Source: a virus
Direction: 5' to 3' (one strand)
Length of the DNA: 28,705 nucleotides
Virus record (IMG/VR): IMGVR_UViG_3300047462_000262
Span: 1-28,705 of that record
Below the pieces are notes generated by a model. The model saw only the letters and a program-made list of their open reading frames with translations, made no database searches and was not told where the DNA came from. The position numbers and the translations under genes were made by a program. The stretch's first letter is position 1. Every line of letters begins with the position of its first letter. Below, piece after piece: positions 1 to 28,705 of the stretch.

Positions 1-354
1 AACGTTCCTGCAAAGATTAAGAATGCGTTGAAGGAAGAGGCAAATAAGGCTCGTAAGCTTGCTGAAACATTCGCAATGCGTAAGGATTGGGATTCAAAGA
101 ACTTCCACGAAACGCTTGCAAATGCAATGGATACACTAAATGGCTTCCTCGATAAAGGAACGATTTATGGTATTAAAGAAGCACAAGTGTTTATGACAAG
201 TTTAATGAGCCCATTTACAAACAAGATTCCACCAGAAGTAATTAAGTTTGTAGCATCCGGCGGTTCGCTACGCTCATTAAGAAGCTATATGAATGATGTT
301 AAGGCACCACACACTGGTACAGTGTTTCAACAAGACAGCAACGGAGTAAAGTAA
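1..354 (+). CDS. Unknown phage protein, 3' end only
   Basis: The reading frame is open from base 1, so the gene starts upstream and only about 117 C-terminal residues are visible. The segment is mostly charged and helical (KNALKEEANKARKLAETF) and shows no domain I recognise. The stop TAA overlaps the next start (TAATG), so translation is probably coupled to the following gene. An internal TTG at 28 could be proposed as a start, but there is no ribosome-binding site before it and the frame continues upstream. Function unknown. Confidence 0.75.
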   Translation, partial: NVPAKIKNALKEEANKARKLAETFAMRKDWDSKNFHETLANAMDTLNGFLDKGTIYGIKEAQVFMTSLMSPFTNKIPPEVIKFVASGGSLRSLRSYMNDVKAPHTGTVFQQDSNGVK

Positions 355-608
355 TGTCGTACGAATTAACGAAAAAGAGATTTTATGAAGCAGCAGGTAT
401 TGAGGTTGAACTCTGTGAAGATGGAGAATGGAGACCAAAAAAGGGGTTCTTGCTTGATAAGCCTGTAAAGCGTAAAACAAAGAAATCATCTACTCTAAAG
501 AGCCTTGACAGAAAATCAAAGAAAAATTCATTGAGGGAATTCTTTGACGTTGCTGGTGTTTCAGATGAATCATTAGCGCAAAAGTTAATTGAAAATGAAG
601 GCAACTAA
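354..608 (+). CDS. Unknown small basic protein (84 aa)
   Basis: Starts at an ATG overlapping the previous stop (TAATG). The middle is very lysine/arginine-rich (KPVKRKTKKSS, then DRKSKKNSL), with an acidic C-terminus. The basic tract suggests nucleic-acid contact or a packaged virion protein, but no family is recognised. It sits in a run of short same-strand genes whose other members carry a shared N-terminal peptide; this one (MSYELTKKRFYEAAGIE) has only a partial match. Confidence 0.7.
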   Translation: MSYELTKKRFYEAAGIEVELCEDGEWRPKKGFLLDKPVKRKTKKSSTLKSLDRKSKKNSLREFFDVAGVSDESLAQKLIENEGN

Positions 609-610
609 CG

Positions 611-811
611 ATGAAAGTCTCGGAGCTATTTGAGAAGTCATTGATTGCTCCAAGCAGTTTCGATAAGACTGGCAGTCCTATGAAGTTGCCAAATCAATAT
701 AAAAATGTCGACTATGGTAAGGCAACAAAGGCAAGACCAATGACGATAACAGTAAGAAGTTCAGGCAAAGGTCATCAAGTTTACGGTCGTCGGACAATAA
801 TGTCAAAGTGA
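611..811 (+). CDS. Small basic protein with MKVSELF N-terminal tag (66 aa)
   Basis: Begins MKVSELFEKSL after an AAGG ribosome-binding site, then becomes basic and polar (KATKARPMTITVRSSGKGHQ). The N-terminus matches the M-K-hydrophobic-x-E-L-F pattern of several unrelated proteins in this window and resembles T4 capsid-targeting peptides. No enzyme motif. Ends TGA, 7 nt before the next gene. A packaged virion protein is an inference. Confidence 0.7.
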   Translation: MKVSELFEKSLIAPSSFDKTGSPMKLPNQYKNVDYGKATKARPMTITVRSSGKGHQVYGRRTIMSK

Positions 812-818
812 GGTAGTT

Positions 819-1139
819 GTGGATAAAAAGTTAACGTTTCTAGAATTTCTTCAACTTTCCGAAGCAGAGCTAAAGGCTATGGCTCCAGCAAATGTTGCTG
901 TTCGCAACAAACCAAACTTAATTGACAAGAGCAAGCCTCTTGATCCAGATTCATATGAGTATCGTCAACGTTGGAGAGGCAAGCCAAAGACAAAGGCTGG
1001 TCGTGAAGCACATGAAGTTGCTTATGATGTTAAGAAGAATCATGAGAAGCTTGCAAAGAGAAAAGAAACTTCGTCTGACTTTAAACCATTGAAGGGATAT
1101 CTTTCACCACGTCCACCTCGTGAAGGCAACCGCAACTGA
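819..1139 (+). CDS. Small basic late protein with capsid-targeting-like N-terminus (106 aa)
   Basis: Start GTG at 819, chosen because GAGG lies 6 nt upstream and no ATG is suitably placed. The N-terminus MDKKLTFLEFLQLSEAE is an amphipathic helix ending in LSE|A, which fits the (L/I)xE|A/G/S cleavage rule of T4-type prohead protease. The rest is basic (YRQRWRGKPKTKAGREAHE, then KKNHEKLAKRK), as expected of a T4-style internal head protein. That role is inferred; no homologue is recognised. Confidence 0.7.
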   Translation: MDKKLTFLEFLQLSEAELKAMAPANVAVRNKPNLIDKSKPLDPDSYEYRQRWRGKPKTKAGREAHEVAYDVKKNHEKLAKRKETSSDFKPLKGYLSPRPPREGNRN

Positions 1140-1148
1140 GGTTAGCAA

Positions 1149-1538
1149 ATGAAAGTAGTTGAAATTCTTAAAGAGGCTAAGCAACCTGCTAAGAAAACGA
1201 AGAAGATTCCAAAGCCAAAGCCTCGTCCCAAAAAGAATCTCTGGTTCCAAGATAAAAATCATTGGCATAATGATTTGACATTCGTTCATGGTCATGGCAA
1301 TCTTCAAATTCACCATCCAGCTGATGAAGAGGATGAAGAGTCTCGCGATTACTATGCAACTGGTCCAGATGGAAAAATAACGTGGGGTGTGTGGAGAGGA
1401 AAGCAGAAGCGTGGAATCACATTCTACCAACCAAGACATATTGCTTATGTTAAACATCCAAGAGTTAAGCTAAAACAATTGGATACAAGTGGGGCAGACA
1501 CAAATAATATAACTTCCCCACCAGTAATTCGCCCCTAA
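1149..1538 (+). CDS. Unknown protein with MKVVEILKEA N-terminal tag (129 aa)
   Basis: ATG preceded by GAGG. The N-terminus MKVVEILKEAK contains LKE|A, a possible prohead-protease site at residue 9, followed by a lysine/proline-rich linker (AKKTKKIPKPKPRPKK). The remainder (residues 33-129) has conserved-looking W, H and G residues (WFQDKNHWHNDLTFVHGHG; KITWGVWRGKQKRG) and could be one small folded domain. Family not recognised. Last gene before the leader and tRNA array. Confidence 0.7.
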   Translation: MKVVEILKEAKQPAKKTKKIPKPKPRPKKNLWFQDKNHWHNDLTFVHGHGNLQIHHPADEEDEESRDYYATGPDGKITWGVWRGKQKRGITFYQPRHIAYVKHPRVKLKQLDTSGADTNNITSPPVIRP

Positions 1539-1572
1539 AATTGCAGAAAGAATAAGGGAGTTTAACTTTCCG

Positions 1573-1601
1573 TTGACTTACCATATATACAATAGTAGAG
1601 T
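1573..1601 (+). promoter_or_regulatory. Sigma70-type promoter before the tRNA array
   Basis: TTGACT (1573-1578), a 17-bp spacer, then TAGAGT (1596-1601). The -35 matches 5/6 and the -10 4/6. Transcription would start near 1608 and run through the leader ORF and hairpins into the tRNA genes. Confidence 0.45.
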
Positions 1602-1686
1602 GCACTCCAAGTGAGACGTTTTACGACTCATGAATGGGACGCAAAGCGACCCAAGAGTAATTAACTGAAGGACAGGAAGAACGCAA

Positions 1687-1830
1687 ATGTTTACAAGACT
1701 ATCACAACATCAATCATGGCAAATATCGCAGCGACTCGCTGGCGGTCATGGGATGTCTTTGTGTGGTTTTAGCCGTTCAGAACGCCCTGATTATAGAAAT
1801 GGTCTTTCGTTTGAAGGAGTCAAAATTTAA
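1687..1830 (+). CDS. Putative leader peptide ORF (47 aa)
   Basis: ATG with AGGA about 9 nt upstream; begins MFTRLSQHQSWQ and ends at TAA 1828-1830. It resembles no known protein and contains most amino acids. Its last codons (1801-1830) form the 5' half of a 13-bp stem that competes with a terminator downstream. This position suggests a translated attenuation leader rather than a functional protein. It could also be a chance ORF. Confidence 0.35.
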   Translation: MFTRLSQHQSWQISQRLAGGHGMSLCGFSRSERPDYRNGLSFEGVKI

Positions 1831-1866
1831 GACTCCACTCTAAAAAGAGAATCCAAACGAAAGACC
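1801..1866 (+). promoter_or_regulatory. Candidate antiterminator hairpin
   Basis: GGTCTTTCGTTTG (1801-1813) pairs perfectly over 13 bp with CAAACGAAAGACC (1854-1866). Inside lie GGAGTC/GACTCC (1816-1821/1831-1836) and CTC/GAG. The 3' arm is the same sequence that supplies the 5' arm of the terminator at 1860-1892, so the two folds exclude each other. Confidence 0.55.
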
Positions 1867-1892
1867 GAATCGAAAGAAACGGTCTTTTTTAT
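1860..1892 (+). terminator. Intrinsic terminator upstream of the tRNA array
   Basis: AAAGACCG (1860-1867) pairs with CGGTCTTT (1880-1887) across a 12-nt loop, followed by a T-run ending TTATT. Placed before, not after, the tRNA genes, which suggests attenuation rather than simple termination. Confidence 0.6.
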
Positions 1893-1895
1893 TGC

Positions 1896-2170
1896 TTGAA
1901 TGTTTTTGATGAATACGGGTTGAGTTTAGATCGCATGACCAATAGGTCCCGACTATCCCCAACGGAACTAACTGTGCGAGGTAGCAATCCACAGTTCCCA
2001 CCACGCAGATAAGCCAACATCGTTGGACCTGCTGAAAGAAATGAGGAAGTACGCGTCTTTGTTGTAGTGATGTCGATGCGTATTACGATGCCTCTGCTAC
2101 AAAAATAAGTCGATCGGAACTCCCCGTTCGTAAAGTATAGGGAGTAAGTTTTTGAAGAGTGTTTATTTGT
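1896..2170 (+). other. 275-nt non-coding stretch with small hairpins
   Basis: No credible ORF on either strand; reverse-strand frames here are shadows of tRNA T-loops. It contains GACC/GGTC (1938-1947), a longer ACTGTG/CACAGT pairing, CCAAC/GTTGG with a 3-nt loop, and CTCCC/GGGAG near 2120-2144. It could be the leader of the tRNA transcript or an unrecognised RNA. I see no tRNA in it. Confidence 0.3.
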
Positions 2171-2247
2171 GAGGTCGTTGACAAGCGGCCTAAGTCCTGA
2201 CTCTGTGAAAGTCATATTCGTGGGTTCGAATCCCACCGATCTCCCCA
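2171..2247 (+). tRNA. tRNA-His (GUG)
   Basis: Acceptor GAGGTCG/CGATCTC, anticodon arm TGACT-CTGTGAA-AGTCA, T-arm GTGGG-TTCGAAT-CCCAC, C73 and encoded CCA. C73 fits bacterial tRNA-His, but the base before G1 is T, so the expected G-1 is not encoded. Confidence 0.9.
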
Positions 2248-2267
2248 AAAAGCATTCAAAGTATTAT

Positions 2268-2342
2268 GGCTCTATAGTGAAATGGATATCACGCAACTTT
2301 GCGAAGGTTGAAGTCCAGGTTCAATTCCTGGTTGGGCCACCA
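2268..2342 (+). tRNA. tRNA-Arg (GCG)
   Basis: Anticodon arm CAACT-TTGCGAA-GGTTG; T-arm CCAGG-TTCAATT-CCTGG; A73; encoded CCA. The acceptor has one U-U mismatch. GCG is unusual because bacteria normally read CGU/CGC with an inosine-modified ACG tRNA. Confidence 0.85.
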
Positions 2343-2361
2343 GTGGTAAGGTTTACGTCGC

Positions 2362-2400
2362 GGACCGTCGAAGACGTAGCACCGTAGTGTCAAGCGGTCC
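2362..2400 (+). other. Closed hairpin spacer before tRNA 2410
   Basis: GGACCG (2362-2367) pairs with CGGTCC (2395-2400), ending 9 nt before the next tRNA. A second pairing, TACGTC upstream with GACGTA inside the loop, would form an H-type pseudoknot with it. One of several such spacers in the window. Confidence 0.35.
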
Positions 2401-2409
2401 AGATTTTAT

Positions 2410-2487
2410 GCCTTCGTATCCCAACTGGCAGAGGAGCTTGTCTTAGAAACAAGTTATGTAGGAGTTCGAATCTCCTGGAAGGTACCA
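2410..2487 (+). tRNA. tRNA with UAG anticodon, short variable loop (Leu-type anticodon)
   Basis: Anticodon arm CTTGT-CTTAGAA-ACAAG, T-arm AGGAG-TTCGAAT-CTCCT, A73, encoded CCA. UAG reads CUA (Leu), but the variable region is only about 6 nt, whereas bacterial tRNA-Leu has a long arm. A canonical tRNA-Leu(UAG) exists at 18884, so this one may carry another amino acid. The first pair is G1-U72; pair 7-66 is a G-G mismatch. Confidence 0.75.
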
Positions 2488-2575
2488 TATGCTACGGGAA
2501 CTCAAATAGCATTAAAAAGAGTTCCTCCTGTGAAAGTCAGGCGAGCGGGATCTACGATACGGCCCAGTGAATTAT

Positions 2576-2651
2576 GTCCTTGTAGTCCAATGGATGGGCG
2601 CCGCGCTTCGAACGCGGAATAATGTAGGTTCGATTCCTATCAAGGATACCA
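2576..2651 (+). tRNA. tRNA-Arg (UCG)
   Basis: 76 nt: acceptor GTCCTTG/CAAGGAT (G1-U72), D-stem GTCC/GGGC, anticodon arm CCGCG-CTTCGAA-CGCGG, T-arm GTAGG-TTCGATT-CCTAT, A73, encoded CCA. Reads CGA/CGG. Confidence 0.9.
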
Positions 2652-2706
2652 TCTTACAGTGCCGGGCAAGCTTTCCATCCAGGAAAGAAGTTGTGGTGCT
2701 TGCGGG

Positions 2707-2757
2707 GCTAGCGCGCCGCTTCCAACATCAAAAACAATAGGTGGTAATTGAGCTAGC
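2707..2757 (+). other. Closed hairpin spacer before tRNA-Phe
   Basis: GCTAGC (2707-2712) pairs with GCTAGC (2752-2757), ending 9 nt before tRNA-Phe. Just upstream lie nested GCAAGC/GCTTGC and CTTTCC/GGAAAG stems. TTGAGCTAG also recurs as a direct repeat entering the tRNA D-arm. Confidence 0.3.
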
Positions 2758-2766
2758 ATAATTTAT

Positions 2767-2845
2767 GGGACTTGAGCTAGTGTGGTCATTTCAGCACACG
2801 CCTGAAGAGCGTGATAACTCGGTTCGATTCCGGGAGGTCCCACCA
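2767..2845 (+). tRNA. tRNA-Phe (GAA)
   Basis: Acceptor GGGACTT/AGGTCCC, anticodon arm CACGC-CTGAAGA-GCGTG, T-arm CTCGG-TTCGATT-CCGGG, A73, encoded CCA. The D-loop is rather long. Confidence 0.9.
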
Positions 2846-2970
2846 CATCGATCGTACATAGAGGGGTTTGCAGTATCCTCTATGACACGTACTTAAACTG
2901 CTCTCTGAGGTCAAAAGAGAAAATAAGTCTCATCTGCGGGTGAGCGGGAGTAGACCGAAGCGTAAGAGTA
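2846..2970 (+). other. Structured spacer
   Basis: Contains an 8-bp hairpin CATAGAGG/CCTCTATG inside GTAC/GTAC, then CTCAT/GTGAG within GTCT/AGAC. No ORF and no tRNA seen. Confidence 0.25.
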
Positions 2971-3041
2971 AAGTCATTGGTGTAGTGGAAGCACACCGGG
3001 CCATTAGCCTGGAAGCGTTGGTTCGAACCCGACATGACGAA
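2971..3041 (+). tRNA. Atypical or decayed tRNA-like sequence
   Basis: T-arm GTTGG-TTCGAAC-CCGAC and D-arm GTG/CAC are clear, but only five acceptor pairs form (GTCAT/ATGAC) and no CCA is encoded. The anticodon stem CCGGG/CCTGG closes CCATTAG, which lacks U33; read conventionally the anticodon is AUU (Asn). The stem can extend to six pairs with a 5-nt loop. Probably a degenerate tRNA. Confidence 0.45.
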
Positions 3042-3083
3042 TGGGATCTCTACCGTGAATCAAAAAGCCCATACAAATTCTAA

Positions 3084-3162
3084 GGGGAGGTACGCCAGTT
3101 GGTAGAGCGGCTAGGTATTAAAAGCTTAGTGGTCGGTGGTTCGAACCCATCCTTCCCCACCA
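3084..3162 (+). tRNA. tRNA with Lys-like body and expanded 9-nt anticodon loop
   Basis: Acceptor GGGGAGG/CTTCCCC, T-arm GGTGG-TTCGAAC-CCATC, A73, encoded CCA. D-arm and variable region (GTTGGTAGAGC, GGTC) resemble bacterial tRNA-Lys. The best anticodon stem, CTAGG/CTTAG, closes a 9-nt loop TATTAAAAG, so the anticodon is ambiguous (UUA by 5' counting, UAA by the U33 rule). Confidence 0.6.
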
Positions 3163-3167
3163 AATAT

Positions 3168-3242
3168 GTAGCTGTCTTCTAACGGCAGGAAACTTCGTTC
3201 TCAGCGAAGATAATGTGGGTTCAATTCCCATCAGCTACGCCA
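3168..3242 (+). tRNA. tRNA-Glu (CUC)
   Basis: Perfect acceptor GTAGCTG/CAGCTAC, anticodon arm CTTCG-TTCTCAG-CGAAG, T-arm GTGGG-TTCAATT-CCCAT, G73, encoded CCA. Only 5 nt after the preceding tRNA. Confidence 0.9.
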
Positions 3243-3248
3243 CTTTGC

Positions 3249-3256
3249 TATAAATA
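3249..3256 (+). promoter_or_regulatory. T4-type late promoter TATAAATA
   Basis: Exact match to the T4 late consensus, 26 nt before the ATG at 3283 with a GGAG site between, which is the classical arrangement. Confidence 0.7.
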
Positions 3257-3282
3257 GTCTCACCATACATTTGGAGACTATT

Positions 3283-3654
3283 ATGACCCTCTTAAGCGAA
3301 TTGTTTCAGATTAATGAAGCTACACAACCAGTTGATCCAACTCTTGCTATTGAAGAACAGCTTGAGATTCTCGAATCTCGCATGGCAGCAGCAAAAAGAG
3401 GTCTTGGGTTTGCTAACAAGTTAAAAAATCCAGCTCAAAAGAAAAAGCATATGGCACTTGTTCTTAGCAACTTGAATAAGATTCGTGGTAATCTTACTCG
3501 TGTAATTAATCAGATGGCACAGTTTGATAATGCTGAACGTGATCACGAAGCAAGTATGGAAGGTCCAGGAATGGAGTTTGACCACAATAGTCGTGAACCA
3601 ACAGCTGGTCGTGCAGCAGCTCGTAAAGAAGGTGATGCCGCAGGTTGGATGTAA
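3283..3654 (+). CDS. Unknown late protein with capsid-targeting-like N-terminus (123 aa)
   Basis: ATG 3283 is preferred to an in-frame TTG at 3271 because GGAG sits 6 nt upstream of it. The N-terminus MTLLSELFQINEA resembles T4 Alt-type capsid-targeting peptides and contains INE|A, a T4-protease-like site at residue 12. The body is helical with a basic stretch (MAAAKRGLGFANKLKNPAQKKKHM), and the C-terminus ends GRAAARKEGDAAGWM. Driven by an exact late box and closed by a strong terminator, so probably monocistronic. Internal head protein is an inference. Confidence 0.75.
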   Translation: MTLLSELFQINEATQPVDPTLAIEEQLEILESRMAAAKRGLGFANKLKNPAQKKKHMALVLSNLNKIRGNLTRVINQMAQFDNAERDHEASMEGPGMEFDHNSREPTAGRAAARKEGDAAGWM

Positions 3655-3677
3655 TTTAACAATGTAAATTTTTACTA

Positions 3678-3708
3678 GAAAAGCCTCTTTATGAGGCTTT
3701 TCCTTTTT
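3678..3708 (+). terminator. Rho-independent terminator
   Basis: A 10-bp perfect stem GAAAAGCCTC/GAGGCTTTTC with a 5-nt loop, followed by CTTTTTAA. Ends the transcript of the gene at 3283; the methylase start lies 12 nt beyond. Confidence 0.85.
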
Positions 3709-3720
3709 AAGGATACCCAT

Positions 3721-4314
3721 ATGTCAAGTCAAGAGATCGTAGCGAACACATTAGCTACATATTGGAATGTAAAGGACCAGTATAAGGAGAAGACTCTTGA
3801 TCAATTGCGAGAGGTATGCGATAATGATTCGTTGCCATTTGCAGTTTGTGCGATCAATATAACAGGTGATTTGAACCTTGGAATCATGATGAGAACAGCA
3901 TCGCTTCTAGGAGCTGAGCGTTTTATCATTTATGGCAAGCACACATATGATCGTCGTTCAACTGTTGGTGCACATAATTACATTGATATTGTTAAGGCTG
4001 GAAGTATTGATCGTGGTGGTTCATTGGATATTAACTACGATGAGTTCTTTCCAATTATGAATAGCTTTGGTTATCAACCAGTTTTCCTTGAAACAGGTGG
4101 ACAACCATTAGAGAATTTTGATCCAAAGTATAGCATTGGTAAGTACAAGAAGCCTTGCCTAGTATTTGGAAACGAAGGGATTGGCATTGAGCCATCACTT
4201 ATGGTAGATCAAGTTGTGGTTAGCATTCACCAAAGAGGTGTGCTAAGAAGTTTTAACGTATGTGCAGCTGCAGCAATTGCAATTGAACATACATCAAGGT
4301 ATTTTAGAGAATAA
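3721..4314 (+). CDS. SpoU/TrmH-family RNA 2'-O-methyltransferase
   Basis: Transfers methyl from S-adenosylmethionine to a ribose 2'-OH of tRNA or rRNA. The three SPOUT motifs are visible: N52-L-G-I-M-M-R58, LVFGNEGIGIE (147-157) and LRSFNVCAAAAIAIEH (175-190) with the conserved S177 and N179. At 197 aa it is the bare catalytic domain with a short N-terminal extension. ATG 3721 was chosen for AAGGAT upstream; an ATG at 3691 lies inside the terminator. The stop ends one base before tRNA-Glu, so a phage-tRNA substrate is plausible but not shown. Confidence 0.85.
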   Translation: MSSQEIVANTLATYWNVKDQYKEKTLDQLREVCDNDSLPFAVCAINITGDLNLGIMMRTASLLGAERFIIYGKHTYDRRSTVGAHNYIDIVKAGSIDRGGSLDINYDEFFPIMNSFGYQPVFLETGGQPLENFDPKYSIGKYKKPCLVFGNEGIGIEPSLMVDQVVVSIHQRGVLRSFNVCAAAAIAIEHTSRYFRE

Positions 4315-4315
4315 T

Positions 4316-4392
4316 GTCTGTGTCGTCTAAAGGCTCAGGACTCCTGCCTTTCAAGTAGGATAATGTGGGTTCGACTCCCATCGCAGACGCCA
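4316..4392 (+). tRNA. tRNA-Glu (UUC)
   Basis: Acceptor GTCTGTG/CGCAGAC, anticodon arm CCTGC-CTTTCAA-GTAGG, T-arm GTGGG-TTCGACT-CCCAT, G73, encoded CCA. Begins one base after the methylase stop codon. Confidence 0.92.
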
Positions 4393-4395
4393 AGT

Positions 4396-4518
4396 TAATA
4401 CCAGCAAGCATACGATGCTGTCTCAACTTAATAGTTGTAGAAAGAGAGTATGTAGGACATTTTACCGAAAGTAAAATTAATTTGGGCTAGCCAAGCACGG
4501 TCCTGTAAACTTGTATTA
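4396..4518 (+). ncRNA. Candidate structured RNA between tRNA-Glu and tRNA-Asp
   Basis: Closing stem TAATAC/GTATTA (4396-4401/4513-4518) encloses CAGCA/TGCTG (4402-4406/4416-4420), CAACT/AGTTG (4424-4428/4433-4437), and GGAC/GTCC (4455-4458/4500-4503), which in turn encloses TTTTAC/GTAAAA (4460-4465/4471-4476) and GGCTAGCC. It ends 9 nt before tRNA-Asp. It may be a processing element or a separate RNA; function unknown. Confidence 0.4.
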
Positions 4519-4527
4519 TTGAATTAT

Positions 4528-4604
4528 GGAGCGTTCGCATAGTGGCCTATTGCACTCCCCTGTCACGGGAGACTTCAGGGGTTCGAATCCCCTACGTTCC
4601 GCCA
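4528..4604 (+). tRNA. tRNA-Asp (GUC)
   Basis: Acceptor GGAGCGT/ACGTTCC, anticodon arm CTCCC-CTGTCAC-GGGAG, T-arm AGGGG-TTCGAAT-CCCCT, G73, encoded CCA. Confidence 0.93.
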
Positions 4605-4622
4605 TATTTGTAAAGGAAAGTA

Positions 4623-4907
4623 ATGCCAATTACACAAAGTCATATAGACTATTTGTTAACAACAATTGACAACGATATGGATAAGGAAATATCCATGTGT
4701 GGTCCAATTTTTCGTCAATCACGAGAGCAGTTTGCTCTAGGAATATTGACTGAAAATGAAGTACGAGAAGGTTTAGGATACTTAGTGAAACTTGTTCTTC
4801 CAAGAACGACAGCTAAATTCCATGCCGAAAAATTATTCAATGCAGCGATCGATTACATTATCGATCCAACCAAAGTATTAAATGCAGAGGTTGGTAGTGT
4901 TCAATAG
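4623..4907 (+). CDS. Unknown small protein (94 aa)
   Basis: ATG with AAGGAAAG upstream. Begins MPITQSHIDYLLTTIDND; mostly helical and acidic, no recognised motif. It ends in UAG, a rare stop here, with an in-frame UAA five codons on, so readthrough would add only four residues. Confidence 0.65.
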   Translation: MPITQSHIDYLLTTIDNDMDKEISMCGPIFRQSREQFALGILTENEVREGLGYLVKLVLPRTTAKFHAEKLFNAAIDYIIDPTKVLNAEVGSVQ

Positions 4908-4963
4908 AAAAGAATACAATAAGCGGCTGCGTGGGTAGAAAAAGTTTTTAAAAACTAATATAT

Positions 4964-5038
4964 GCAGGTAGAGTGTGTTTGGTTACACGACTGGCTTCCA
5001 CCCAGTAATACGGAGTTCGATTCTCCGTATCTGCTCCA
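4964..5038 (+). tRNA. tRNA-Gly (UCC)
   Basis: Acceptor GCAGGTA/TATCTGC, D-stem GTGT/ACAC, anticodon arm ACTGG-CTTCCAC-CCAGT, T-arm CGGAG-TTCGATT-CTCCG, U73, encoded CCA. Confidence 0.93.
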
Positions 5039-5111
5039 ATCACTAGTGAGTTGCAAACAAGGAATGGCGATGTCTGACTCTGCAGAGAAGGACAAAAGCT
5101 GAACTTGTTGA

Positions 5112-5181
5112 AGTTGTATAGTATAGTGGAAACACGTCTCCTTTTTCGGAGAAGACCTGGGTTCGAATCCCAGTGCAATGG
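5112..5181 (+). tRNA. Atypical tRNA, Lys (UUU)-like anticodon, 6-nt loop
   Basis: T-arm CTGGG-TTCGAAT-CCCAG is perfect. The acceptor gives six pairs (GTTGTA/TGCAAT, two G-U) with a mismatched first position and no encoded CCA. The anticodon stem TCTCC/GGAGA closes a 6-nt loop TTTTTC, reading UUU (Lys) with one base missing 3' of the anticodon. Degenerate tRNA, or one with an altered anticodon loop. Confidence 0.5.
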
Positions 5182-5198
5182 GCAACTTTAAGTTTTAT

Positions 5199-5274
5199 CA
5201 GAGTAAGCGCCATATGGGAGGCGACTCGGCCTGGAACCGAGAATACCGTGCAGGTTCGAATCCTGCTACTCTGA
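5199..5274 (+). tRNA. tRNA-Pro (UGG), with C33
   Basis: Perfect acceptor CAGAGTA/TACTCTG (C1-G72 as usual for tRNA-Pro), D-stem CGCC/GGCG, anticodon arm CTCGG-CCTGGAA-CCGAG, T-arm GCAGG-TTCGAAT-CCTGC, A73. Position 33 is C instead of the near-universal U, and CCA is not encoded. Confidence 0.8.
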
Positions 5275-5299
5275 CATGGGGACCTTGTCGAAGGTCCGT

Positions 5300-5307
5300 A
5301 ATAAATA
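5300..5307 (+). promoter_or_regulatory. Late-type box AATAAATA abutting a start codon
   Basis: 7/8 match to TATAAATA, 4 nt before the GIY-YIG start. A T4-like start site about 6 nt after the box would fall on the start codon, implying a leaderless mRNA. A GGACCTT/AAGGTCC hairpin (5280-5297) lies just upstream. Confidence 0.5.
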
Positions 5308-5311
5308 GAGG

Positions 5312-5971
5312 ATGCATTACATTCTCTATAAGATTACAAATAATGTAAATGGTAAGTCCTACATAGGAACTCATAAAACCACAAACATTAACGACGGGTA
5401 TTTTGGATCAGGCAAGCTGTTGAAGCGTGCTATTCTAAAATATGGCATCGATAAGTTCTCGAAAGAGATTCTTCAAATGTTCCAGAATGAAGAAGAGATG
5501 TTTAAAGCAGAAGCTGAAACTGTAAACGAAGATTTTGTTAAACGCGAAGACACATACAATCTTATTGTTGGTGGTCAAGGTGGATTTAGTTATATAAATG
5601 CCAACGGGCTAGCTGTTCAACATATCACTAAAACCAACGCAAAGCGTCTCAGCAAAAAGGCTAACAAGGCAAGATCGTTAAAGCTGCAAACAGATTCACA
5701 GTTTCGTAAGCAAGTTCAAAAAACATCACGAAAGATTATGCTTCAGCGAATAGCTCAAAATGGACCTTCGTTTTTAGGCAAGCAGCATAGTGCCGCTACC
5801 AAACGAAAAATGAGTAGGGCTAAGAAAGGTAAGACCATCGGCGATAAAAACTCACAGTACGGAACAATGTGGATTACCAATGGTACCAACAACAAAAAGA
5901 TTTTAAAGAATGAATCTATTCCATCAGGATGGAATAGGGGTCGAATAATGGGCATATGCGTGAGTGGTTGA
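5312..5971 (+). CDS. GIY-YIG homing endonuclease (Seg-like)
   Basis: Cuts DNA at a specific site to promote its own spread. Residues 1-90 form the GIY-YIG domain (YILYKITNNVNGKSYIGTHK with downstream catalytic R and E candidates). Residues about 150-205 carry a NUMOD3-like DNA-binding repeat (FLGKQHSAATKRKMS, then GKTIGDKNSQYGTMWITNG). Intron-free, like T4 Seg enzymes. Paralogous along its length to the gene at 9627. The last residues (IMGICVSG) are read from the following tRNA-Tyr, and the stop lies in that tRNA's D-loop, suggesting insertion or deletion removed its own stop. Confidence 0.88.
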   Translation: MHYILYKITNNVNGKSYIGTHKTTNINDGYFGSGKLLKRAILKYGIDKFSKEILQMFQNEEEMFKAEAETVNEDFVKREDTYNLIVGGQGGFSYINANGLAVQHITKTNAKRLSKKANKARSLKLQTDSQFRKQVQKTSRKIMLQRIAQNGPSFLGKQHSAATKRKMSRAKKGKTIGDKNSQYGTMWITNGTNNKKILKNESIPSGWNRGRIMGICVSG

Positions 5972-6035
5972 AACGACGAAGCTGTAACCTTCGTGCTTAA
6001 TAGCCGCGGTGGTTCAAATCCATCTACATCCACCA
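5950..6035 (+). tRNA. tRNA-Tyr (GUA), first copy, imperfect acceptor
   Basis: Anticodon arm CGAAG-CTGTAAC-CTTCG, long variable arm (14 nt), T-arm GGTGG-TTCAAAT-CCATC, A73, encoded CCA. The acceptor GGGCATA/TACATCC has two adjacent C-A mismatches. Its 5' part overlaps the 3' end of the GIY-YIG gene. Possibly non-functional, since an intact copy follows. Confidence 0.75.
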
Positions 6036-6846: not shown

Positions 6847-7266
6847 GTGAAAGTAAAAATTGGCAACTATCCAAAGAAGACTGGCGATCGCAAGGTAAAA
6901 GTTGAGATTAGCAGCCACGATTTGTATAACCTGGATACAACACTTGCATTGGTTATTGCACCAGCGCTTAAAATGTTCAAACAACATAAAGGCGGTATTC
7001 CTGGTCAATTTATTACTAACCGGTATTACGAATTAAGCAACAAGTCAAAATTGACTAGTGCTGAAAAGAGGCAACTTGCCAAAGAAGAAAAACTTTCCGA
7101 GAAAAATTACAATGACGTTCTCGATAGTATGATTTGGTCATTTGAGCAACTTGCAGCAGAAAATGATATGATTACTGGTACAGAAGAAGAACGTAAAGCA
7201 CACGACGAACGAATCCAACTTGGTTTGGATAATTTTGCGAAGCATTATTCGACGTTGTGGAATTAA
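6847..7266 (+). CDS. Unknown phage protein (139 aa)
   Basis: GTG start chosen because AGGAG lies 5 nt upstream and the N-terminus MKVKIGNYPKKTGDRKVKVE is coherent. The protein is mixed alpha/beta by eye, with a charged middle (SAEKRQLAKEEKLSEKNYND) and an amphipathic C-terminus. No catalytic motif. Lies between tRNA-Arg(UCU) and tRNA-Ser(UGA), probably co-transcribed. Confidence 0.7.
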   Translation: MKVKIGNYPKKTGDRKVKVEISSHDLYNLDTTLALVIAPALKMFKQHKGGIPGQFITNRYYELSNKSKLTSAEKRQLAKEEKLSEKNYNDVLDSMIWSFEQLAAENDMITGTEEERKAHDERIQLGLDNFAKHYSTLWN

Positions 7267-14607: not shown

Positions 14608-14824
14608 GTAAAGTAATTACAATTTGGGAAGTTGACGATGATGATGTTTGGGAGTATAATCACTATAGTGATGGATATGATAAGGAACAATTAGTTCCAA
14701 TTAGTTCCAATTAGTTCCAATTGGTACACCACAACAGACCAAGTCTTGGGCAAGACAAAAGTGGAGAAAGTTTGAAGGCATCCTTGAGAACGGGGAAGTC
14801 AAGCATAAAGTTTATTGCAAATAA
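14604..14824 (+). pseudogene. Small gene frameshifted by a 10-bp tandem repeat (contingency-like locus)
   Basis: ATG (ATGA overlap with thioredoxin) begins [20 protein letters not shown]. At 14691-14720 the 10-mer TTAGTTCCAA occurs three times, shifting the frame to a UAG at 14712. Removing two copies (20 nt) restores a continuous 66-aa protein that continues GTPQQTKSWARQKWRKFEGI to TAA 14822-14824; 221-20=201 nt is a multiple of three. Four copies would also be in frame. Function unknown. Confidence 0.75.
14691..14720 (+). repeat. Three exact tandem copies of TTAGTTCCAA
   Basis: Perfect 10-bp units at 14691, 14701 and 14711. They disrupt the reading frame of the gene at 14604. Confidence 0.97.
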
Positions 14825-17383: not shown

Positions 17384-18088
17384 ATGAAGTTATACGAGCT
17401 TACCTTCCAATATCACGACAAACTTAACCCTAAAATTTGGGATGGCGACAAGCTACGTCCTGAAGTTCGCAAGAAGATGCTTACTATTGCTGAACACTTC
17501 TTTAAGTCATTGAAGGTACCAAACCTAAAAGTAGAGGATTGTGTATTCACAGGCAGCTGTGCAAACTATAACTACACTCCATATTCCGACCTTGACATTC
17601 ACTTGCTTATCGATACAAAGAAAGCTGCTGTTGAATGCAAAGAGTTTAAGATGGAACTCTTTGATGCAAAGAAGGATCTTTGGAAATCAAAGTACGAAGA
17701 TGTAGAGATTTGTGGCTATCCAGTTGAAGTTTATGTTCAAGACATTAATGAGAAGTTTCCAGTTGCACAAGGTGTGTATTCACTACGCAACGATAAATGG
17801 TTAGACAAACCAGAACACAAGAAGCCAGAGATCGACAAGAAAGAAGTCAAGGCAACAACAAAGGACTTTGAAAAAGAGATTAACGCTGTTGTTAGCGGTG
17901 ATCAAGGACACGATAAGGCAAAGAAGATTAAGGATGAACTTAAGACGACTCGCGAGAAAGGTCTACATAGTGATGGTGAGTTCTCTGATGAGAACATTGC
18001 GTTCAAGGAACTACGCAACAAAGGCATCATAGGTAAGTTAATGAACTATATAAAAGACAAAGACGTTGAAAAAATGTCATTAAAGTGA
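17384..18088 (+). CDS. Pol-beta-fold nucleotidyltransferase with N-terminal tag
   Basis: 234 aa. The nucleotidyltransferase signature is FTGSCANYNYTPYSDLDIHL (about 55-74): GS at 57-58 and the metal-binding D69 and D71; PVEVYVQD (113-120) could supply the third acidic residue. The C-terminal third is lysine-rich and helical. The N-terminus MKLYELTFQYHDKLN carries the shared tag. It could modify a protein, an RNA or a small molecule; not a typical CCA enzyme. The TGA overlaps the next GTG. Confidence 0.75.
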   Translation: MKLYELTFQYHDKLNPKIWDGDKLRPEVRKKMLTIAEHFFKSLKVPNLKVEDCVFTGSCANYNYTPYSDLDIHLLIDTKKAAVECKEFKMELFDAKKDLWKSKYEDVEICGYPVEVYVQDINEKFPVAQGVYSLRNDKWLDKPEHKKPEIDKKEVKATTKDFEKEINAVVSGDQGHDKAKKIKDELKTTREKGLHSDGEFSDENIAFKELRNKGIIGKLMNYIKDKDVEKMSLK

Positions 18089-18973: not shown

Positions 18974-19882
18974 TTAGACTACTGGATCCGTAAAGACCAA
19001 CTGTGGTGCAAATGGACCACGTCGAACCATAATGTTTCCACCATGAATATCAGGTCCTCTAGGATCATTATCTCCTTTGCGAGATTTTTTGATAAATCCT
19101 CGCAATACAATCAAAGCCCTCTTTAGTTCTGGATCTTTAATGTTTGTAGCTGGTCCCTTATCGCCTGGAGCAGGTCTATATGGTACTTCCATTGCAGTTC
19201 TAATAGCATCAAAAAACGCATCTTCTACAACGCTTTTAAATTTACGTGAATATTCTTCTTCGCCCTTTTGTCCAAAAAGGACCTTTTGTTTTTGTATCTT
19301 TAATCTTTCATGTTCATCACGACTACGTTTCCCTGCACCAATTTTATCACGAACCTTGTTTTCATCACGAAGGTTTTTTCTTTTTTGGTTGTATGAACTT
19401 AGCAATGCTTGGAAATTTGAAAATAGCTTATTGCCCATTTCCATCATTTCTTCTACTGACAAATCTGAAAATCGATGCAAACGTTCCATTTCAACTTTAT
19501 AAGTGTATGGTTCTTGATAACGTTGGTTAGGATCTGGTGGAGATTTAAATACTTCTACATCATACACTCTTGGAAAATACCTATTGTCGGATCCCTCCTT
19601 GTGAGAAGCCAACATTTTCATGTATTGGTAGTATCCATCTCGGCCAAGATTACTTGCTGGTCTTACAACTTTATTCGCCGTTCCTGGTTCTTCTTTTGTT
19701 GAATATGCAGTTCCAAATAAACCCGATCCAAGACGTTCAATACCATTTTCTTCGTCTGATTGCGTTTCAGCACCATATCGGTCATCTTGACCACGATTCA
19801 ACCGATCAAAATTATCTCTAGCAGATACTTCTGTATCTTTTGGCTCAAGCTTCTGTGGTGTTAATAGTTCAAATACTTTCAT
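18974..19882 (-). CDS. Protein-kinase-like protein with N-terminal tag (302 aa)
   Basis: Kinase-like fold: glycine-rich loop LGSGLFGTAYS (51-61), candidate lysine in NKVVRP (about 71), catalytic-loop-like DIHGGNIMVRR (D278, N283) and TDPVV with D299 in the DFG-aspartate position. The D-x-H-x-x-N form recalls APH/RIO-type kinases more than HRD kinases. The protein ends straight after the D, so no activation segment or C-lobe remains. Tag MKVFELLTP at the N-terminus. Start at 19882 has AAGGAT upstream. Paralogue of the next gene; the two form a minus-strand pair. Target unknown. Confidence 0.7.
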   Translation of the reverse strand: MKVFELLTPQKLEPKDTEVSARDNFDRLNRGQDDRYGAETQSDEENGIERLGSGLFGTAYSTKEEPGTANKVVRPASNLGRDGYYQYMKMLASHKEGSDNRYFPRVYDVEVFKSPPDPNQRYQEPYTYKVEMERLHRFSDLSVEEMMEMGNKLFSNFQALLSSYNQKRKNLRDENKVRDKIGAGKRSRDEHERLKIQKQKVLFGQKGEEEYSRKFKSVVEDAFFDAIRTAMEVPYRPAPGDKGPATNIKDPELKRALIVLRGFIKKSRKGDNDPRGPDIHGGNIMVRRGPFAPQLVFTDPVV

Positions 19883-19883
19883 A

Positions 19884-20657
19884 TTAATCCTTCCATTTTG
19901 GTGATGCGCCGCCACCTGAAATTGGATCTGTAATTACAACCTGTACGCCATAAGGTCCGCGACGAATCATTAAGTTGGCATGATGTAGATCCGCTGAAAA
20001 ATCAGGATTTGATTTTAGAATTTTCTGTAAAAACATCATTGCCTGTACCAACTTTGGATTCTTAATTGTTGTTATTGGTCTTGTTGACATTAATATCTCG
20101 TTAAAACAATCTGCAAAGGCAACCAATGCCACTATTTTTTGAGTTCGTTCTCTTGACTGTTCTTCTTCTGGATCACCAGTTGGTTTTGATCCTTTGATTC
20201 CAAGTTTTTTCTTCTGACCCCTAATTTCTGAATCAAACTCTGTAAAGAGATCTCTTCCGATTGTCATAATCTCATCTGTTCTTAAACTTGAAAGTGGGCG
20301 CAACTTTTCCATGTTAACATTATATGTGTACTTACCACTAGCATCTCTAAATGTATCTAATTTAAATACTTTTGGAAAGAATGGATTGTTTGCAATACGA
20401 TCATTCTGCGAAAGCATATGTAAAAATTCATAGTACGGGTCGTCTGCAAGATATTTAATTTCACTTGATTTAGCTATCTTATCGACAGCGCCTGGATCTT
20501 TTTGAGCAGCATATACATCAGCATATGCTCCACCACCAATACGTTGACGTGATTGGTCAGTCCAACCAAGTTCTCGCTGTTTGGATGCGATATTTTGCTT
20601 ATCCAATTGCTTATACTTCAGTTGGTCAGGTGTTAGAAAAAGTTCAAGTAATTTCAT
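19884..20657 (-). CDS. Protein-kinase-like protein with N-terminal tag, paralogue (257 aa)
   Basis: Same layout as its neighbour: tag MKLLELFLTPD, glycine-rich loop RIGGGAYADVY (about 40-49), lysine in VDKIAK, the segment FFPKVFKLDTF, and ADLHHANLMIRR (D223, N228) then ITDPIS (D244). A short tail follows. All nucleotide- and metal-binding positions seem kept, so activity is possible. ATG 20657 has no ribosome-binding site and lies 5 nt after a minus-strand AATAAATA box. The downstream paralogue begins right after its stop. Confidence 0.7.
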   Translation of the reverse strand: MKLLELFLTPDQLKYKQLDKQNIASKQRELGWTDQSRQRIGGGAYADVYAAQKDPGAVDKIAKSSEIKYLADDPYYEFLHMLSQNDRIANNPFFPKVFKLDTFRDASGKYTYNVNMEKLRPLSSLRTDEIMTIGRDLFTEFDSEIRGQKKKLGIKGSKPTGDPEEEQSRERTQKIVALVAFADCFNEILMSTRPITTIKNPKLVQAMMFLQKILKSNPDFSADLHHANLMIRRGPYGVQVVITDPISGGGASPKWKD

Positions 20658-28622: not shown

Positions 28623-28705
28623 GGAAGTATCCCATAGAGGTCTATTGGCGCCGCTTGGAAAGCGGATGGGTAGTGAAAGCTGCCACGAGAGTTCGAATCC
28701 CTCTA
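28623..28705 (+). tRNA. tRNA-Ser (GGA), cut by the window edge
   Basis: 5' acceptor GGAAGTA, D-arm CCA/TGG, anticodon arm around TTGGAAA, long variable arm GGGTAG/CTGCC, T-loop TTCGAAT. The 3' acceptor is lost after two bases. Confidence 0.8.

Follow-up and report, generated by a model that had tools for sequence, protein, structure and literature searches.

The reason that phages carry tRNA arrays has long been in question. The main ideas are codon compensation and escape from tRNA-cutting defenses (PMC10264068). Phage tRNAs are reported to rescue infection when defenses destroy tRNA-Tyr or tRNA-Lys, and the strength of their expression matters (PMC11555353). The locus described here raises the question of how transcription of such an array could be tied to the state of the tRNA pool. 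The reading that we consider best, and likely, is that a roll-call leader detects a shortage of tRNA and, through attenuation controlled by ribosomes, governs transcription of the phage tRNA array. The anatomy of this leader, its conservation, its open frame, its amino-acid content and its folding energetics are shown below. We infer that the leader is translated, that transcription terminates at 1890, that a stalled ribosome is the signal and that the phage benefits against tRNA-cutting defenses; there are no RNA, ribosome or expression data.

The window, which is the whole stretch of DNA that was analyzed, is the 28,705-base IMG/VR virus record IMGVR_UViG_3300047462_000262. Its genes are similar to those of Caulobacter phage Cr30 and of T4-like phages. 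The VWA-like protein has 53.5% identity to its Cr30 counterpart, and an RNA ligase and homing endonucleases are also encoded. ARAGORN finds 29 tRNA genes, with ORFs in between, that extend on the + strand from 2171, where the first tRNA begins, to 21868. Judged from sequence alone, this array, or at least its first block, is likely to be under the control of the leader that precedes it. A second intrinsic terminator (3679-3701, + strand), without a competing arm, lies after the first eight tRNAs. No sigma-70-like promoter site was found on the + strand from 1717 to 3797, so none lies between the leader terminator and the first tRNA. The gene at 17384-18088 has distant relatives in INPHARED and none in viral_contigs (IMG/VR), where the upstream ORF (1149-1538), the 47-aa leader ORF and the exact arms of the window also have no relatives. 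Two tRNA genes (2971-3041 and 5112-5181) are odd, an Asn tRNA with anticodon ATT and C33 and a Lys-like tRNA with a 6-nt anticodon loop, and no encoded CCA end was drawn for either. A weak tRNA match (23.8 bits) at 28623-28705 is truncated by the end of the record. An 18-nt repeat (unit CAATTAGTTC) is present at 14688-14725 in three overlapping copies with 10 nt spacing. Two neighboring minus-strand ORFs (18974-20657) belong to the same PHROG (T7-like protein kinase/host-transcription inhibitor) and are possibly one split gene.

The leader ORF extends over 47 codons from the ATG at 1687 to a TAA ending at 1830 on the + strand. By its sequence, AGGAAG (1674-1679, + strand), 7 nt before the ATG, is a possible ribosome-binding site. 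The final codons of the ORF form arm A (GGTCTTTCGTTTG, 1801-1813, + strand), the 5' arm of the putative antiterminator. Arm B (CAAACGAAAGACC, 1854-1866, + strand) is common to the antiterminator and the terminator, and arm C (CGGTCTTT, 1880-1887, + strand) is the 3' arm of the terminator. The end of the ORF falls between arms A and B, which pair perfectly over 13 bp, or over 14 bp with an outer pair (1800-1813:1854-1867, one G:U). Nested within A:B are an inner hairpin (GGAGTC/GACTCC, 1816-1836, + strand), with the stop TAA (1828-1830) in its loop, and a second small hairpin (CTCT/AGAG, 1838-1849, + strand). The intrinsic terminator is composed of GAAAGACCG, 12 nt, CGGTCTTTT and a U-run (1859-1890, + strand). 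It has a 9-bp stem (1859-1867:1880-1888) and a U-run of six (1885-1890), and it overlaps arm B. A:B is the sole perfect 13-bp inverted repeat with a spacer of at most 100 in all 28,705 bases, while 30 dinucleotide shuffles of the window contain a mean of 0.1. The original prediction had described arms A, B and C with both pairings, which held exactly, and a 47-codon ORF with a ribosome-binding site, of which the ORF is confirmed and the site is only possible.

Relatives of this leader were sought by alignment of the neighboring VWA-like protein, and the leader itself was not used as a query. The alignment yielded 22 loci, 12 of them with seven or more tRNAs. The window, the 22 loci and Cr30 were scanned for terminators with a competing upstream arm. 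The scan found 25 terminators, 11 of which had such an arm. Eight of these 11 precede tRNA arrays (the window, L008, L009, L011, L012, L017, L018 and L024), and the arms of the other three are just 8-9 bp. The leader of L019 has an interrupted U-run and was therefore included after visual inspection. A pattern search built from the arms of four leaders returned 14 pieces, including ten new contigs, every one with a leader ORF; the leader of L033 was completed from L072. The total is 18 distinct leaders, that of the window and those of 17 further IMG/VR contigs. L018, whose leader and tRNA order equal those of L017, and the duplicates L026, L030, L036, L037 and L039-L041 were dropped from the counts. 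Ten of the 18 leaders came from a pattern that requires their arms, and the leaders form approximately seven families, so the counts are not independent. In genome_contigs, the same DNA pattern gave 18 hits, none before a tRNA array and one before a single tRNA-Arg.

A nineteenth, GC-rich leader is encoded by Virus Rctr197k (GenBank KX853510) and was found solely by reading upstream of the annotated array. Its ORF is at L080:6772-6930, its terminator at 6954-6990, arm A at 6917-6927 and arm B at 6959-6969, with one mismatch, and arm A is nearer to the stop codon than in the other 18 leaders. In folding, A:B has a probability of 1.0 before arm C exists, and the terminator also reaches 1.0 once a ribosome occupies the stop codon. 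Above noise, this leader matches itself alone, and searches of INPHARED returned nothing for those of L009, L017 and L034.

Not every array has such a leader. The arrays of L002, L005 and L010, with 26-31 tRNAs, have a TTGACA/TATATA promoter directly before the first tRNA and no leader. Relatives that keep the tRNAs and lose the pairing or the ORF had been named in advance as a refutation, and this is partly met by these three loci. In the 400 nt before the first tRNA of L005 and L010 there are two successive TTGACA promoters, an alternative design without a leader. RHph_I1_18 (5 tRNAs) and the S-CRM01 piece (2 tRNAs) also have no leader, and the XacN1, RHEph12, Phabba and BUCT-ZZ01 pieces have no annotated tRNA. 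The start of the L016 array is not visible. L031 has no tRNA in the 91 kb of its record, and its leader lies ~270 nt from the end of the examined piece.

In all 18 leaders, arm A starts 28-35 nt before the end of the ORF, arm B starts 14-27 nt after it, and the A:B pairing of 8-17 bp overlaps a U-tailed terminator. Shuffled leader regions reproduced this geometry 0 of 720 times. There are four unrelated types of arm sequence (the window, L012, L017/L019 and the TTCCTT type), and pairing is retained in each. MAFFT over all 18 leaders misaligns the arms between families, and therefore pairs were counted only in a 14-leader group of one type. Covariation of the three arms had been proposed as a check, and in this group the terminator covaries: it is 98.2% paired and has six double-change cells, a result that 0 of 500 shuffles reached. 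A:B is nearly invariant in the group and thus carries no covariation information; across the four types, its sequences differ and its pairing is kept. The inner hairpin close to the stop codon is also found in relatives, with weak covariation (25 of 500 shuffles). The arms, the shared geometry and the covariation of the terminator are what a mutually exclusive antiterminator and intrinsic terminator should display.

The leader RNA of the window (1608-1895) folds with a z of -3.9, and 0 of 200 shuffles folded equally well. In the free window RNA, folding gives A:B a probability of 0.997 and the terminator 0.0005. The ribosome was modeled as a masked stretch of 32 nt, and the order of folding was approximated by truncation of the RNA, without a kinetic simulation. 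With the P-site anywhere in 1786-1825, the terminator becomes dominant (0.72-0.99), and with a stall upstream of 1786, A:B stays intact. Across all 18 leaders, A:B reaches 0.93-1.00 before arm C exists. A ribosome at the stop codon brings the terminator above 0.5 in 16 of the 18, and in the remaining two this occurs one codon earlier. Selection of the structure by the position of the ribosome is predicted by this model, in silico only. Without a ribosome, the equilibrium is A:B in the window, the terminator in L012, L017 and L019, and mixed in the others. Because the equilibrium of these three leaders favors the terminator, unlike that of the window, the default of the untranslated RNA may differ. 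The original prediction had proposed a circuit in which a stalled or absent ribosome leaves A:B in place and the tRNAs are transcribed, and in which a finished ORF leads to the terminator. Folding of the window RNA supports this circuit, and the proposed check of folding the 1600-1900 region agrees with it.

Frame 0, the equivalent of the leader ORF, is uninterrupted in all 18 leaders, frame 1 in 2 and frame 2 in none, and the stop codon is TAA in every leader. The peptide sequence is not conserved, with pairwise identities of 31-85% among 12 related leaders. No purifying selection on the peptide was detected in the TTCCTT group, where differences at the three codon positions are 0.32/0.31/0.37 (a weak codon-position signal) and codon differences are 1621 nonsynonymous versus 354 synonymous. 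The claim of translation therefore rests on the open frame and on its content. ARAGORN also reports tRNAs with anticodon CTA (labeled Pyl), possible amber suppressors, at L012:14859, L017:9829 and 14586, L014:17600 and 18000, L004:9612 and L019:9846. A TAA stop in all 18 leaders would be consistent with recoding of TAG in some of these phages.

All 20 amino acids occur in 14 of 18 leaders, where 0.45 would be expected from a background of 254 proteins of these phages. With Rctr197k included, the count is 15 of 19, against a background of 1-4%, and other short ORFs in these pieces contain all twenty in 20 of 523 cases. The all-twenty idea was derived from the window, and the remaining leaders are therefore its test. 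A stall can act only if it occurs upstream of arm A, and for this reason the part before arm A was also counted alone. There, all twenty are already present in 13 of 19 leaders (0.13 expected), and L009 reaches them within 36 codons. The window leader has 17 amino acids before arm A and all 20 over its whole length. Among the 12 related leaders, 12 of 12 are complete, versus a mean of 4.9 and a maximum of 10 in 5000 column shuffles, so losses at one site are compensated at another. The Shannon entropy of the composition is not unusual in most leaders. The conserved trait of these leaders is the set of amino acids, not the peptide sequence.

The content of some leaders also follows that of the array. 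In the anticodon tests, Pyl(CTA) tRNAs and tRNAs lacking a clear three-base anticodon were excluded. The window leader samples 23 of the 24 distinct anticodons of its array (22 by strict wobble), while windows of its own genes sample a mean of 17 and 0 of 3984 match the leader. Without the doubtful Asn(ATT) and Met(CAT), 21 of 22 anticodons are sampled, which again 0 of 3984 gene windows reach. When 14 leaders were compared with the genes of their phages, excess sampling was significant in the window and L017, modest in some others and not significant in most. Residues without an array tRNA are scarce before arm A in the window (3 of 36, P 0.0007), L012 (4 of 33; 0 of 837 as low), L017 (0 of 34; 0 of 1307 as low) and L019 (2 of 34, P 0.013). 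This avoidance of array-absent amino acids was not seen in 7 of the 11 phages tested, whose leaders carry all twenty. For L008, L011, L012, L029, L034 and L038, the contig or piece ends before the array does, and tRNAs counted as absent may be elsewhere. Matching each of 11 leaders against each of 11 arrays favors the leader's own array (permutation P 0.0016), with the caveat that L017 and L019 are related; for five divergent leaders, the true match ranks 2 of 120. Control codons are thus matched to the product of the operon for the window, L012, L017 and L019, and the remaining leaders have the complete set of 20 amino acids in place of such a match. We infer that there are likely two leader styles, one matched to the array, as in the window, and one with the full amino-acid alphabet. 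The original prediction of a sensor of tRNA shortage is supported at the level of inference, and codon content is evidence that it had not seen.

The proposed mechanism would work as follows. RNA polymerase makes the leader, and a ribosome would translate the ORF behind it. If all codons are read promptly, the ribosome would have arrived within the final ~14 codons, or at the stop, when arms B and C emerge. Its position over arm A would allow B:C pairing, and transcription would stop at ~1890. A missing charged tRNA, whether through host tRNA cleavage, starvation or codon mismatch, would cause a stall in codons 1-33. The stalled ribosome would leave arm A free, A:B would form first, no terminator would form, and the tRNA genes would be transcribed. 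The roll call would consist of codons for nearly every array tRNA, or for all 20 amino acids in many relatives, and shortage of any single tRNA would switch on the whole array.

Three other explanations were weighed. The leader could be a general sensor of translation rate through coupling, which responds whenever ribosomes slow down or are absent (shut-off, antibiotics or starvation). Its varied codons would then merely average the pace of the ribosome, and individual tRNAs would not be the signal. In its favor, the default of the window without a ribosome is read-through in folding, and the leader does not track array content in 7 of 11 phages. Such a sensor does not need all 20 amino acids to be kept by compensation (12 of 12 versus a mean of 4.9), nor all twenty to be complete before arm A (13 of 19), nor the avoidance of array-absent amino acids seen in four phages, and we consider it unlikely.

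The remaining two explanations appear very unlikely. The ORF could be a gene for a small functional protein with its own terminator, with an independent promoter for the array and A:B as an incidental 3'-end structure. The ORF, terminator and array would then be separate elements, and the arrays of L002, L005 and L010 do possess their own promoters. Yet the A/B/C geometry is kept (18 of 18 leaders, 0 of 720 shuffles) while the peptide is not conserved, and there is no sigma-70-like + strand promoter from the window terminator to the first tRNA. Alternatively, the leader could be controlled by a ligand or a protein, as in a riboswitch or with an antiterminator protein, and the ORF would be accidental. 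That the leader RNA is structured fits this view. Against it, only tRNA matches reach the Rfam gathering score, with none inside the leader at E<=5, and all 18 leaders have an open frame that ends at a near-fixed position relative to arm A.

Attenuation by a roll-call leader, the preferred reading, has known counterparts. The trp, his, thr and ilv leaders of enterobacteria are examples of ribosome-mediated attenuation of amino-acid operons. Alike are the short leader ORF, for which translation is inferred in the phage case, the arms that form an antiterminator or a terminator, and the decision by ribosome position, which folding predicts for the phage leaders. The enterobacterial leaders contain control codons of one to three kinds, arranged in runs, and target biosynthesis genes. 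In the phage leaders, the codons cover the entire array or every one of the 20 amino acids and form no run, and the putative target is viral tRNA genes. Unlike in these attenuators, arm A has no upstream pairing partner in the fold of the window, and therefore the untranslated RNA would read through and not terminate. In erm/tylosin-type leaders, a stall lets transcription pass the terminator, and unstalled translation favors termination. These drug-inducible attenuators (PMC6851288) resemble the mechanism proposed for the phage leader in that a stall leads to read-through, but they respond to a ribosome that a drug has bound at a single site and not to a set of tRNAs. The T-box riboswitch senses the state of tRNA and controls a terminator by binding tRNA directly, without translation. 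Sensing of tRNA and control of a terminator would be shared with the phage leader; direct binding would not, and no Rfam T-box match was found for the antiterminator or specifier domain in the window leader at the gathering score or at E<=5. Work on phage tRNAs as counter-defense (PMC11555353, PMC10264068) shares the proposed purpose of replacing tRNAs destroyed by host defenses, with the difference that a strong phage tRNA promoter is reported in PMC11555353. We infer that the leader likely works as classical attenuators do, and that the new elements are a phage tRNA array as the target and a whole-alphabet leader.

A bolder reading, to which we lean only slightly as a whole, is that a class of phage roll-call leaders exists, with ~50 codons covering every amino acid or those that the array supplies, upstream of an attenuator. 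In the same reading, these leaders are sensors of the complete tRNA pool that evolved to detect host tRNA-cutting immunity. A leader that reports tRNA loss would supply tRNAs on demand, and the link to counter-defense is an inference. If true, the array would be deployed when tRNAs are lost and not supplied constantly, which can be tested with a reporter. The leader would also be an attenuator attuned to every amino acid, and a simple device to report depletion of any tRNA. In the open-access literature searched (subscription journals were mostly outside the search), no attenuation of phage tRNA arrays and no whole-alphabet leader was described. Term searches found no attenuation, leader or promoter in PMC10264068, and no attenuation or leader in two phage-tRNA papers.

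The start of leader transcription is the weakest part of the original prediction, which had placed a promoter before the ORF. The candidate, TTGACT-17-TAGAGT (1573-1601, + strand), is weak, with 9 of 12 consensus matches. Positions 1-6000 contain 16 such sites, versus 11.4 +/- 3.7 in shuffles, which is not clearly more, and the candidate is no better than expected by chance. Among the leaders, 13 of 19 have a promoter with at least 10 of 12 matches within 260 nt upstream, versus 212 of 1900 shuffles, and the best in the window has only 9. Twelve TTCCTT-type leaders (L008, L024, L025, L027-L029, L031, L032, L034, L035, L038 and L072) have a GATAAATA-type motif 59-67 nt before the ATG, which we take to resemble a T4 late promoter. 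In most TTCCTT-type leaders, sigma-70-like promoters lie further upstream of this motif, and early and late control are possible.
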